Shown here: positions 27,279-31,614 of the stretch, in pieces
How the letters are laid out: each line of letters opens with the position of its first letter
How positions within the stretch are numbered: position 1 is the stretch's first letter
DNA from: an uncultured Lachnospiraceae bacterium
Lineage (GTDB): Bacteria > Bacillota > Clostridia > Lachnospirales > Lachnospiraceae
Assembly: GCA_947630595.1 (NCBI GenBank)
Contig: CANRIG010000034.1
Span: 1 to 32,651 of the forward strand
Direction of reading: 5' to 3'
Length of the DNA: 32,651 nt
The notes under the pieces: generated by a model
The model's input: only the letters and a program-made list of their open reading frames with translations
Told to the model about the DNA's origin: nothing
Databases searched by the model: none
Program-made: the position numbers and the translations under genes

Positions 27279-27508
27279 TAATCGGGCGATGAAGAAGATC
27301 AGTAGTCTCAAAGCGCTTTTCAGAGAGGAATCGGCGGGTGCGAGATTCCAGGCAGCGGGGATGAACCGGCTTTGGAGCCTCCGCGGGAAACCGCGGCGCG
27401 GTCCGGCGTTAACGGATAATGAAGAGAGCAGCAAAAGGCTGTTAATGAGGGTGGTACCGCCGGTATTCCGGTCCCTTGCGGACTGGGGCGCCGGCGGTAA
27501 ATTGTTTT
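27279..27508 (+). promoter_or_regulatory. T-box riboswitch (proline) upstream of proS
   Basis: A 230-nt leader with the hallmarks of a tRNA-sensing T-box. Stem I starts with the AGATCAGTAG block, then AGAGAGG and the GCGGGTGCGAG region. The specifier region reads GATGAA-CCG-GCTTTGGAGCC, where CCG (27366-27368) is a proline codon. The T-box sequence AATGAGGGTGGTACCGC is at 27444-27460. TACCGCCGG (27455-27463) pairs with CCGGCGGTA (27491-27499), with an inner CCGGTCC / GGACTGG hairpin; an AATTGTTTT tail follows, so terminator function is likely though the T tract is imperfect. Uncharged tRNA-Pro would favour the antiterminator and raise proS expression. Confidence 0.9.
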
Positions 27509-27524: not shown

Positions 27525-28964
27525 ATGGCTAAGGAAAAGAAACTGGTAGAAGCGATTACTTCCATGGAAGAAGATTTCGCGCAATGGTATACGGACGTCG
27601 TCAAAAAGGCGGAGCTGATCGACTACGCCAGCGTCAAGGGCTGCATGGTGATCAAGCCGGCGGGCTATGCGATCTGGGAAAATATTCAGCATGAGCTGGA
27701 CCGCCGCTTCAAGGAGACCGGGGTGGAGAATGTGTATCTGCCGATGTTTATCCCCGAGAGTCTGCTGCAGAAAGAGAAAGACCACGTGGAAGGCTTCGCG
27801 CCGGAGGTGGCGTGGGTGACGCACGGCGGGCTCGAGCCGCTGCAGGAGCGCATCTGCGTGCGCCCGACCTCGGAGACGCTGTTCTGTGATTTCTATGCAA
27901 ACGATATTCATTCCTACCGTGATCTGCCGAAGGTTTACAACCAGTGGTGCTCCGTGGTGCGCTGGGAAAAGACGACCAGGCCGTTCCTGCGCTCCCGCGA
28001 GTTTCTGTGGCAGGAGGGGCATACCGCGCACGCGACCGCGGAGGAAGCGGAGGAACGTACCATTCAGATGTTGAATGTTTATGCAGATTTTTGTGAGGAA
28101 GTGCTGGCGATTCCCGTGATCCGCGGGCGCAAGACGGACAAGGAAAAATTTGCGGGCGCGGAAGCGACCTACACGATCGAGGCGTTGATGCACGACGGCA
28201 AGGCGCTGCAGTCCGGCACCAGCCACAATTTCGGCGACGGCTTTGCAAGAGCGTTCAACATCCAGTATGCGGATAAGGACAACACATTAAAATATGTACA
28301 TCAGACGTCCTGGGGCTTCTCCACGCGCATGATCGGCGGCCTGATCATGGTGCACGGGGACAACAGCGGCCTGGTGCTGCCACCGCGGATTGCGCCGGTA
28401 CAGGTGATGGTGATTCCGATCCGCCAGCAGCAGGAGGGCGTGCTGGAGAAAGCGCGGGAGGTCATGGACGCGCTGAAGGCGGCCGGCCTGCGGGTGAAGC
28501 TGGACGATTCCGAGAAGAGCCCGGGCTGGAAATTTGCCGAGCAGGAGATGCGCGGAATCCCGCTGCGCATCGAGCTGGGACCGAAGGACATCGAGGCCGG
28601 GCAGGCCGTGATCGTGCGGCGCGACACGCGCGAAAAGATTGCGGTTCCGATCGCGGAGCTGGCGGCGAAGATTCCGGAAGTGCTCGAGACCATGCAGAAG
28701 GAGATGCTGGAGCGGGCGAGGGCGCACCGCGATGCGCATACTTATACAGCGACGACGAAAGAGGAGTTCCAGGACATCGCCAACAGCAAACCGGGCTTCA
28801 TCAAGGCCATGTGGTGCGGCTGCCAGGAGTGCGAGGACGCGATCAAGGAGGAGCTGGCCGTGACCTCCAGATGCATGCCGTTCGACGGGGAAAAGATCGC
28901 AGATACCTGCATATACTGCGGGAAACCGGCGAAAAAACTGGTATATTGGGGAAAAGCGTATTAA
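27525..28964 (+). CDS. proS: Prolyl-tRNA synthetase, archaeal/eukaryote type
   Basis: A 479-residue class II synthetase. Motif 2 is in [20 protein letters not shown] (split around residue 150), [14 protein letters not shown] opens the anticodon-binding domain near 285, and the C-terminal zinc-like domain ends with [15 protein letters not shown] and the terminal YWGKAY characteristic of this type. The length and the absence of the editing insertion of bacterial-type ProS place it in the type 3 group. Clostridia often carry this form. CAGGAGGAG lies 12 bases upstream of the ATG. It is controlled by the T-box leader. Confidence 0.96.
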
Positions 28965-29113: not shown

Positions 29114-30265
29114 ATGAAAAAATTTTTCAAACTTACAAGCCTTGCCTGCGTACTCGCAATGGCAGTGTCAGGGACGGCGTTTGCTGAGAGCGAAGCTCCG
29201 ACCTTTAAGATCGGCGGCATCGGACCGATGACAGGCGCGGCGGCGGCTTACGGCATGGGCGTTATGAACGGCGCACAGATCGCTGTGGATGAGATCAACG
29301 AGGCGGGCGGCGTGAACGGCGTGCAGCTGGAGTTCAATCCGCAGGACGACGAGCATGACCCGGAGAAATCCGTGAATGCATACAATACGCTGAAGGACTG
29401 GGGCATGCAGCTTCTGCTCGGTTCCGTTACTTCCGCTCCCTGCACGGCAGTCAAGGCTGAGGCAGTGAACGACAACATGTTCCTGCTCACCCCGTCAGGT
29501 TCCGCAGTTGAGTGTATTTCGGATGCTGACAACGCATTCCGCGTATGCTTCTCCGATCCTTCCCAGGGTACGGCTTCCGCACAGTACATCGGCGAGCATG
29601 AGCTGGCGACGAAGGTCGGCGTGATCTACGACAGCTCCGACGTATATTCTTCCGGCATCTATGCAACGTTCAAGGCTGAGGCGGAGAACCAGCCGTTCGA
29701 GATCGTTGCAGAGGAAGCGTTCACGGCTGACAGCAAGACCGACTTTACGGTACAGATTCAGAAGGCAAAGGATGCGGGCGCAGAGCTGGTATTCCTGCCG
29801 TTCTATTACAATGAGGCTTCTCTGGTGTTCACACAGGCTGCGGCTATGGACTACGCTCCGCTGTGGTTCGGCGTGGACGGCATGGACGGTATCCTCACAG
29901 CGGTTGAGGGTTTCGACACCTCTCTGGCTGAGGGCGTTATGCTGCTGACCCCGTTCAGCGCGGACGCTGAGGACGATCTGACCAAGAATTTCGTTACCAA
30001 GTATCAGGATCTGTACGGCGAGGTTCCGAACCAGTTCGCAGCGGATGCTTACGACGGCATCTACATCATGAAGGCTGCACTGGAAAAGGCTGGCGCTACG
30101 CCGGATATGGATCCGAGCGCGATCTGCGACGCGGTGAAGGTTGCCATGACAGAGATTTCTGTAGATGGTCTGACCGGCGCAGGCATGACCTGGAACGCAG
30201 AGGGCGAGCCGTCCAAATCCCCGAAGGCTGTCGTCATCGAGAACGGTGCATATAAGGGCATGTGA
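29114..30265 (+). CDS. livK: Branched-chain amino acid ABC transporter substrate-binding protein
   Basis: A 383-residue type I periplasmic-binding protein of the LivJ/LivK group. Residues 1-24 are a signal peptide (MKKFFKLTSLACVLAMAVSG, then TAFA and ES). The mature part begins TFKIGGIGPMTGAAAAYG, the typical ligand-domain opening, and continues with DEINEAGGVNG and the SAVE and YYNEAS segments of the family. There is a Cys at 12 but not in a regular lipobox position, so the signal looks like type I, unusual for a Gram-positive binding protein. AAGGAGG lies nine bases ahead of the start. Codon use is more biased than in its neighbours, suggesting high expression. Confidence 0.92.
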   Translation: MKKFFKLTSLACVLAMAVSGTAFAESEAPTFKIGGIGPMTGAAAAYGMGVMNGAQIAVDEINEAGGVNGVQLEFNPQDDEHDPEKSVNAYNTLKDWGMQLLLGSVTSAPCTAVKAEAVNDNMFLLTPSGSAVECISDADNAFRVCFSDPSQGTASAQYIGEHELATKVGVIYDSSDVYSSGIYATFKAEAENQPFEIVAEEAFTADSKTDFTVQIQKAKDAGAELVFLPFYYNEASLVFTQAAAMDYAPLWFGVDGMDGILTAVEGFDTSLAEGVMLLTPFSADAEDDLTKNFVTKYQDLYGEVPNQFAADAYDGIYIMKAALEKAGATPDMDPSAICDAVKVAMTEISVDGLTGAGMTWNAEGEPSKSPKAVVIENGAYKGM

Positions 30266-30338
30266 TAATTAAGTTTCGCCATGCAAGTCCGTAAAAGGCA
30301 GACCATGCAGATTTATCTGCAATGGGCTGGATTTTGCG

Positions 30339-30622
30339 GACGCAGATGTGCGGAACGCACATCAGCCGCAGACGGGAGCTGCGGAGCAGCGGACAGCCCG
30401 AGAGGGCGGTCTGCGGCGTGCATGGCGAAACGTTAAGCCGTGTATATCTGCGACGGGTCAGGCTTTCGTGGACGCAGATGTGCGGAACGCACATCAGCCG
30501 CAGACGGGAGCTGCGGAGCAGCGGACAGCCCGCAAGGGCGGTCTGCGGCATGCATGGCGAAACGTTACGCCGTGTATATCTGCGACGGGCTGTGCTTTCG
30601 TGGACGCAGATGTGCGGAACGC
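30339..30622 (+). repeat. 132-bp tandem repeats with conserved RNA folding
   Basis: Two full units (30339-30470 and 30471-30602) and the first 20 bp of a third; a degenerate one may precede. Each unit has the hairpin GATGTGCG-GAA-CGCACATC, then an outer stem GCCGCAGAC / GTCTGCGGC enclosing GCTGC-GGA-GCAGC and GCCC-NNNN-GGGC. The last loop is GAGA in copy 1 and GCAA in copy 2, both GNRA tetraloops. The frame is open across the array and into livH, but ribosome binding and homology place the livH start after it. Confidence 0.93.
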
Positions 30623-30653: not shown

Positions 30654-30681
30654 AGGGGGTTGCAGGCGCAACCCCCTTTTT
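30654..30681 (+). terminator. Intrinsic terminator between livK and livH
   Basis: AGGGGGTTGC pairs with GCAACCCCCT around a four-nt loop and is followed by TTTTT. No promoter is seen between it and livH, so livH and livM would be made by read-through. Confidence 0.92.
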
Positions 30682-30729: not shown

Positions 30730-31614
30730 ATGAGTTTATTATCCTATTTGATTAACGGCATAAGTCTCGGCAGTGTATATGCCATAATCGCATTGGGTTA
30801 CACCATGGTTTACGGCATCGCGCGGATGCTGAATTTTGCCCATGGTGACGTCATTATGGTGGGCGGATACGCGGCGCTCACCGTCATGCTGAATTACAGC
30901 GCAAATCCGCTTGTTGCGGTTCCCGTGGCGATTGTGGTATGTACAGTGCTGGGAATCGTGATCGAGAGGATTGCCTACCGCCCGCTGCGCGCGGCGGCGT
31001 CCCCGCTGGCGGTGCTGATCACGGCGATCGGCGTCAGCTATCTGCTGCAGAACGTCGTGCTTCTGATTTTCGGGCCGAACCCGAAGAGCTTTCAGTCCGT
31101 CGTTCCGTTCCCCGATCTGAAGCTGGCGGACGGCGCGCTGAACATTTCCGCGGAGACGATCGTGACGATCGTCAGCTGCATCGTGATCATGATCGCGCTG
31201 ACGACGTTTATCAATAAGACGAAGGCCGGGCAGGCCATGCTCGCGGTTTCCGAGGACAAGGGCGCCGCGCAGCTCATGGGCATCAATGTCAACGGCACGA
31301 TCGCGCTGACCTTTGCCATCGGCTCCGGTCTCGCGGCAGTCGCGGGCGTGCTGCTGTGCTCCTCGTATCCGTCCCTGTCGCCGTACACGGGCTCGATGCC
31401 CGGCATCAAGGCCTTCGTGGCCGCGGTGTTCGGCGGCATCGGCTCGATTCCCGGAGCGATGATCGGCGGCATCGTACTCGGCGTGATTGAGATTCTGAGC
31501 AAGGCGTACATTTCTTCCCAGCTGGCGGACGCCATCGTGTTTGCAGTGCTGATCGTCGTGCTGCTCGTGAAGCCGACCGGCCTGCTCGGCAGGAAGATTC
31601 AGGAGAAAGTGTAG
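30730..31614 (+). CDS. livH: Branched-chain amino acid ABC transporter permease LivH
   Basis: A 294-residue inner-membrane permease with about eight hydrophobic segments. Family features include the opening LLSYLINGISLGSVYAIIAL, MVYGIARMLNFAHGDV near residue 26-41, the cytoplasmic EAA-like loop with AVSEDKGAAQLMGI, and FGGIGSIPGAMIGG near the C-terminus. The start has GAGG seven bases upstream; the frame is open for 136 codons upstream through the repeat array and terminator. livM follows after nine bases. Confidence 0.95.
   Translation: MSLLSYLINGISLGSVYAIIALGYTMVYGIARMLNFAHGDVIMVGGYAALTVMLNYSANPLVAVPVAIVVCTVLGIVIERIAYRPLRAAASPLAVLITAIGVSYLLQNVVLLIFGPNPKSFQSVVPFPDLKLADGALNISAETIVTIVSCIVIMIALTTFINKTKAGQAMLAVSEDKGAAQLMGINVNGTIALTFAIGSGLAAVAGVLLCSSYPSLSPYTGSMPGIKAFVAAVFGGIGSIPGAMIGGIVLGVIEILSKAYISSQLADAIVFAVLIVVLLVKPTGLLGRKIQEKV

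Follow-up and report, generated by a model that had tools for sequence, protein, structure and literature searches.

A probable MITE family of Lachnospiraceae with a conserved branched fold, represented by a decayed copy between livK-like and livH-like genes

The window, that is, the whole stretch of 32,651 nucleotides that was analysed, comes from an uncultured Lachnospiraceae bacterium. The spacer between its livK-like and livH-like genes contains two units of 132 nt (30324-30455 and 30456-30587), identical in 123 of 132 positions (93%), and the beginning of a third (30588-30622), identical to unit 2 in 31 of 35 positions. The original prediction described this as a tandem 132-bp element. 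The two near-identical units are real, but the true unit is longer and starts earlier: the complete element is represented by copy 1 alone, of approximately 170 nt (about 30267-30436), whereas units 2 and 3 are partial tandem duplications lacking the left half. The following features were observed, with R1 denoting the covariance model described below.

29114-30265, forward strand: livK-like binding protein gene (PF13458, E 2.4e-54); its stop codon is 6 nt from the R1 match
30267-30436, forward strand: copy 1, the complete element, a probable MITE with decayed ends; it comprises the terminal stem, the P2 arm, the P3 hairpin and the three-way unit P4 (cmsearch with R1, 30272-30431, 154.1 bits, E 1.3e-34; fold z -11.3)
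30273-30285, forward strand: 5' strand of P1, GTTTCGCCATGCA; its complement occurs at 30419-30431 and again at 30551-30563 (inverted repeats, 100% complementary)
30287-30341, forward strand: P2 arm, with outer stem 30287-30296/30332-30341 and inner hairpin with GCAGATTTATCTGC (copy 1 fold; consensus helices 2 and 3)
30345-30363, forward strand: P3 hairpin GATGTGCG-GAA-CGCACATC (copy 1 fold; consensus helix 4)
30365-30417, forward strand: P4 three-way unit, with stem GCCGCAGAC/GTCTGCGGC, P4a at 30378-30390 and P4b at 30396-30407, loop GAGA (consensus helices 5, 6 and 7)
30419-30431, forward strand: 3' strand of P1, TGCATGGCGAAAC (inverted repeat)
30456-30587, forward strand: tandem unit 2, without the left arm; P3 at 30477-30495, P4 at 30497-30549 (loop GCAA), right end at 30551-30563 (93% identity; R1 match 30431-30563, 89.2 bits)
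30588-30622, forward strand: start of the third unit, ending inside P3 (31 of 35 identical to unit 2)
30655-30681, forward strand: terminator-like hairpin GGGGGTTGC/GCAACCCCC followed by TTTTT (by reading; the pattern occurs in 27 of 39 upstream regions of livH homologues)
30730-31614, forward strand: livH-like permease gene (PF02653, E 8.1e-46)

Elsewhere in the window, an ordinary T-box leader (RF00230, 113.6 bits) was found at 27280-27479, upstream of a gene at 27525-28964 that was named proS-like by reading.

In copy 1, a 13-bp terminal stem encloses the long P2 arm with the GCAGATTTATCTGC hairpin, the GATGTGCG/CGCACATC hairpin, and the three-way unit. The region 30266-30436 folds at -98.3 kcal/mol (z -11.3), and none of 200 shuffled sequences folds as well. 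The complementary strand of copy 1 also folds (z -10.1). Both a stem enclosing two hairpins and a separate GAA hairpin had been predicted. Both are present, but the minimum-energy fold of copy 1 alone pairs the P4 region differently, and thus the three-way form assigned to it comes from the comparative consensus. Units 1 and 2 have nine differences, none of which breaks the stems of P3 or P4. Two of these differences, at 30401 and 30402, change the terminal loop from GAGA to GCAA, exactly as originally noted. Reading frames are open across the units, since 132 is a multiple of three, and in the ORF list of the window the livH frame is open back to 30322. Neither clean ends nor a target duplication are left in the window copy. 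Thus its assignment to the family described below rests on the fold and, by analogy, on the ends. A tandem or partial second copy beside a full one, as in the window, was also observed at five other loci (L055, L011, L032, L013, L039).

Of the 47 genomes of the genus, 46 have a LivH homologue (E <= 1e-60), and 39 upstream regions were considered; these include one short region (L182, 204 nt), a more distant liv gene (L216, 50% identity) and a 63% homologue (L213). At E <= 0.01, R1 matches only one of the 39 regions, that of G035, and there the copy is antisense. The 38 regions in which no R1 match was observed include those of the close LivH relatives G003, G005, G015 and G067. A copy at the same place and in the same orientation as in the window was found in G022 (L006). 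These two copies may go back either to a common ancestor or to repeated insertion at the stop codon. The element is thus an exception in livK-livH spacers, occurring in one of the 39 regions plus the window and L006, and the homologous spacers lacking it speak against a livK-specific role. A commoner feature of this spacer is the terminator-like hairpin, seen under a strict pattern in the 27 regions listed above; a consensus scan did not list the window hairpin at 30655-30681. This hairpin is a better candidate for control of the dosage of livK versus the permeases.

The consensus fold was derived from alignment A1, which contains 35 sense copies. They come from 45 rows (the window and 44 others), which had themselves been picked for the P2 core and for the P4 stem on both strands; A1 therefore overstates how well these stems pair. 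The ten rows dropped were nine antisense copies and one disrupted copy. Model R1, built from A1, has 166 positions and 60 pairs. A larger alignment, A3, contains 101 copies (98 distinct rows) and did not depend on this filter; its rows were, however, fitted to the model, with a cutoff of E 1e-18. Antisense matches to the model, of 24 to 47 bits, were attributed to the palindromic nature of the fold and not counted.

The same helices emerge from RNAalifold and from the pair count. In A1, 92.1% of 2090 cells are standard pairs, against 80.8% after shuffling, and 41 of the 60 pairs have changed on both sides. The covariation score is 0.334 versus 0.133 in shuffled alignments (none of 500 as high), and at most 0.091 with one side slid. 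Covariation in homologues, whose absence had been named as refuting the original prediction, is therefore present. The values for A3 are 95.0% standard pairs versus 82.0% shuffled, 50 of 60 pairs changed on both sides, and covariation 0.364 versus 0.130 (none of 500), at most 0.077 slid. Double changes occur in every helix of both alignments. Two pairs of A3 perform poorly, that of columns 166 and 271 (unpaired in 42 of 98 rows) and that of columns 177 and 189 (47 of 98). The P4b loop varies, having 3 nt in 22 of the 35 aligned copies, 4 nt in 12 (of which 5 are GNRA) and 11 nt in one. Thus the GNRA class is not conserved in the family, and the earlier argument from the loop swap to selection at the RNA level cannot be extended to it. 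Fifteen further copies, mostly from other genera and several of them weak-scoring, were folded singly. Most share the architecture of terminal stem, long first arm, small hairpin and branched second arm, although their stem sequences are quite different, and three (L130, L136, L137) match it only roughly; single folds are weak evidence.

In the genome of the window, blastn at E <= 0.001 finds only this place, and R1 finds the window locus twice plus a weak match on contig C31 (26.9 bits). In a search of 60 genomes including this one, matches were observed in all 35 other genomes of the genus at E <= 1 (29 of them at E <= 0.001). Other families were represented by 24 genomes, of which 13 have a match at E <= 1, the E values being 0.04 or higher throughout. 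With R1 at E <= 0.001, the genus has matches in 41 of 47 genomes, at least 2 to 45 in each of the 41; these counts are lower bounds, as 61 candidates per genome were scored under strict filters. Among 150 genomes of the family, one per genus and own included, 26 have R1 matches, many of them weak, and six, or five besides the own genome, reach E <= 1e-15. Among 295 genomes of the order, own included, five have matches, and three of these five belong to a single genus of a second family. A scan of genome contigs with the core pattern gave 35 stretches, all in MAG records titled Lachnospiraceae or Clostridiales. Thus the suggestion of a dispersed structured repeat was borne out, as the fold recurs in genomes of the genus and the family. 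Viral contigs do not seem to carry the element: the core pattern and one end pattern match none of them, and the other end pattern matches four, none with the fold. Nor was carriage by plasmids or phages supported, as blastn with one copy each found nothing among phages and, among plasmids, three matches that cover 13-16%.

The best-preserved copies have 176 bp, start with GTAACAGTTCAG and finish with CTGAATAGTTAC, which form an imperfect inverted repeat, and are flanked by 8-bp target duplications. Allowing one mismatch per end, both GTAAC-type ends are recognisable in 68 of 169 copies. Directly outside the ends, an exact 8/8 duplication was found in 28 of the 169 copies and one of at least 7 of 8 in 33, while 101 copies have no duplication score, mostly because their ends are unrecognisable. 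With homologous sites merged, 32 of 144 independent loci have a duplication of at least 7 of 8. One site was observed both filled and empty. The livK-livH spacer of G035 (L198) contains a complete copy in the opposite orientation with GGTCATTT on both sides, and G014 (L215) has GGTCATTT once and no insert.

Shorter elements share these ends. Elements of 58 bp (L157) and 142 bp (L022) have exact duplications and an interior that is different or small, and end pairs about 60-70 bp apart were found in G062 and G001. A palindrome of 27 bp, GTAACTGTGAAGGTACTGAACAGTTAC, occurs in the livK-livH spacers of G030 (L217) and G065 (L218), in the former with GAACAGGG on both sides; it is perhaps the smallest mobile form. 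Judging by these short elements, mobility seems to require no more than the ends, so that the branched interior would be dispensable for it. Variants of 215 nt (L156-L163, L172) carry a module of approximately 54 nt, GGCGCTG..CCAGTGG..TTAGCGCCGACCGAAGTGGAACGGAGAC, in the P3 loop. The module was also found apart from these variants, in the livK-livH spacer of G061 (L203) and partly in the 58-bp element (L157:1840-1897), and its 16-nt core matches four viral contigs.

The 3' end of ftsY is another site of the element. By reading, its copies are intact in G015, G022 and G009, have an internal deletion in G005, G034 and G028, and are absent from G068 and G069; judged by these sequences, the element at ftsY is not essential. 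In the intact copies (L026, L027, L029), all from one clade, the left end overlaps the last FtsY codons (LFNQTEK).

No transposase with matching ends was found, either with PF03050 in 12 genomes or among the end pairs of three genomes. Elements of the IS66 family have ends beginning with GTAA and generate 8-bp duplications, and the same is observed in the present family. Its mobilisation by IS66 is, however, not supported. The IS66 domain PF03050 matched in three of the 12 genomes and in full length in one, and after the last gene of this full-length element (L174), where the end is expected, the sequence reads GCGCTTAC and not GTTAC. No end resembling GTAACNNTTCAG (GTAAC[AT][AG]TTCA[GA], up to one mismatch) was observed in L174-L178, and thus the inverted repeat is not shared with the IS66 element of these genomes. 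Fragments of IS66 transposases occur in the genome of the window (G000:C146 and G000:C113), two of three with an internal stop. The only end pair of about 2 kb in the three genomes, in G062, was considered as an autonomous element; by reading it encloses an amylase-like gene and no transposase.

The orientation of copies was analysed relative to neighbouring genes. At 144 independent loci, 53 copies between genes of the same direction are sense and 53 antisense; a first count, made before loci were added and homologous ones merged, was 42:38. Here genes were called by a simple ORF rule, which is rough and misfiled the window itself by taking an ORF of the opposite strand in place of livH. A sense excess had been seen by eye among the first loci, which were selected by similarity. 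The absence of orientation bias speaks against a directional mRNA role. The positions of copies relative to stop codons are asymmetric. Among copies without a duplication, the left end lies within 15 nt of a stop codon in 33 of 112 and the right end in 15 of 112; for copies with a duplication the numbers are 4 of 32 and 1 of 32. A neutral MITE does not predict such an asymmetry. The end sequence contains TAA, and this may account for a part of it.

The fold appears to be maintained after insertion. One hand-chosen pair of copies was compared in each of 13 of the 18 groups of inherited sites, both flanks being alignable. Three more usable groups were added, giving 16 pairs; of the remaining two groups, one has no alignable left flank and the other contains the same locus twice. 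The 13 pairs differ at 98 of 572 unpaired positions and at 155 of 1530 paired nucleotides. Both sides have changed in 49 base pairs, with 10.9 +- 2.9 expected and a maximum of 21 in 2000 shuffles, and the 16 pairs give 50 double changes versus 10.9 +- 2.8. Watson-Crick pairs are retained in both copies in 39 of the 49 cases, compared to 1 to 4 cases when the partner is slid, although the alignment, as a result of model fitting, is biased in favour of the model. Some double changes may also have come by re-insertion or by conversion from other copies. Still, such strong covariation even between copies at one inherited site argues for the maintenance of the fold.

One explanation is that the fold is selected as RNA for the benefit of the element itself at any site, for instance by shielding read-through transcripts or by binding a host protein. 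Indeed, double changes are seen in all helices and persist at inherited sites, and single folds from distant genera have a like architecture with other stem sequences. If RNA from one strand is selected, A-C pairs should be much rarer than G-U pairs. In the model-fitted alignment of 59 non-redundant copies, 3491 cells comprise 3237 Watson-Crick, 61 G-U, 41 A-C and 152 other combinations, and the single changes at inherited sites comprise 22 to G-U, 12 to A-C and 23 other; these ratios stand without a known-RNA control, as the loci contain only nine tRNAs, which were dropped. The G-U excess is thus slight and unclear, both strands fold, and sense and antisense copies are equally frequent. Hence a role of the sense strand in mRNA is not supported, and RNA selection for the element as such is possible but on the doubtful side. 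Pairing may instead be kept at the DNA level, either because transposition involves recognition of single-stranded DNA or of a cruciform, or because template switching corrects one arm by the other. The near-symmetry of G-U and A-C changes, the balanced orientation and the high share of Watson-Crick pairs in the same fitted alignment agree with this, as does some clustering of the 39 Watson-Crick double changes, with 7 neighbouring pairs of changes versus 2.3 expected. However, 7 neighbouring pairs are few, the 39 double changes comprise 29 transitions and 10 transversions, pairing is kept at inherited sites as well, and the interior seems unneeded for moving in view of the elements of 58 bp and 27 bp, which share the ends and have duplications. 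We regard the DNA-level explanation as a serious possibility, although short of an even chance.

The original prediction also offered stabilisation of the livK 3' end as a role of the element. In this case a cis-acting structure in the 3' untranslated region would protect the livK mRNA and yield more binding protein than permease. A similar role was proposed for REP in malE-malF. The position directly after the livK stop codon and ahead of the terminator-like hairpin, the very stable fold, and the G022 copy at the same place and in the same orientation are all compatible with such protection. Transcript repeats of B. cereus can correlate with the decay rate, although among bcr1, bcr2 and bcr3 this was so for bcr3 only (PMC3446304). 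On the other hand, 38 of 39 livH upstream regions lack the element, the single match is antisense, and no orientation bias was observed at the 144 loci. This role is thus unlikely as the selected one, although an incidental effect on the livK mRNA is possible. Even less probable, indeed hardly credible, is a riboswitch, T-box-like leader, ribozyme or other catalogued RNA. A multi-helix fold with conserved loop sequences would suit such an RNA, but copies occur in both orientations to their neighbours, and no Rfam family of 4227 reaches its gathering score in this part of the window, in agreement with the earlier remark that no named class has this layout. A search of four loci with copies against Rfam at E up to 1 gave only two matches, far below gathering.

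The data show dispersal, terminal repeats, target duplications, an empty site, and a branched fold kept by paired changes. We conclude, with a probability of roughly 0.83, that the feature next to livK belongs to a non-autonomous MITE family of Lachnospiraceae, of about 165-176 bp, with 8-bp target sites and imperfect inverted ends that begin with GTAAC, and that it is an old copy which no longer moves and has in part been duplicated in tandem. A putative transposase acting in trans on the ends would have moved the element. Insertion of the livK copy at the stop codon may have been followed first by loss of its ends and later by partial duplication, and its presence in the liv transcript would be incidental. 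The fold would be kept at the level of the element and not for liv expression, be it as RNA, as single-stranded DNA or a cruciform, or through arm-correcting replication. A broader and rather speculative reading, which we consider somewhat improbable, is a new class of mobile structured RNAs: a MITE with a working RNA interior that is selected in place after each insertion, in at least two families of one order and whatever gene precedes it.

Several known families are similar. Like the bacterial MITEs Correia/NEMIS, ERIC/IRU, RUP, CIR, YPAL/RU-2 and RU-3, as they are reviewed in PMC2229807, the present element is shorter than 200 bp; those families encode no protein and mostly have terminal inverted repeats, and they have target duplications and stable folded transcripts and can fuse to reading frames, compare the FtsY tails above. 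However, most of them form one long stem-loop (CIR has two arms) and have TA ends, whereas our family has GTAAC ends, an 8-bp duplication, and a multi-branched covarying interior. The repeats bcr1-bcr18 of the Bacillus cereus group are also dispersed between genes, often in UTRs and operon spacers; bcr1-bcr3 are MITE-like, and bcr10 and bcr18 have conserved secondary structure (PMC3446304). They belong to another lineage, and the likeness is drawn from their description. REP/RAYT systems share with the present family palindromic repeats that are thought to be mobilised in trans, but REPs have 20-40 bp, a GTAG tag at one end and, as hypothesised in PMC3733652, tyrosine transposases. In contrast, our element has 176 bp, two inverted GTAAC ends and 8-bp duplications. 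Short and dispersed copies, terminal inverted repeats and a target duplication of fixed length place it with the MITEs.

No report recognisable as this element was found in the open PMC papers searched, and as far as this search goes, a MITE family with such a conserved branched fold is new. None of the 4227 RNA families searched matches it. Folded repeats are well known in bacteria, but it is difficult to test whether selection keeps their folds or whether these follow from the inverted ends as by-products. In the present family the question becomes directly testable, thanks to numerous copies, inherited sites, a covariance model, and short relatives that share the ends but have little interior.
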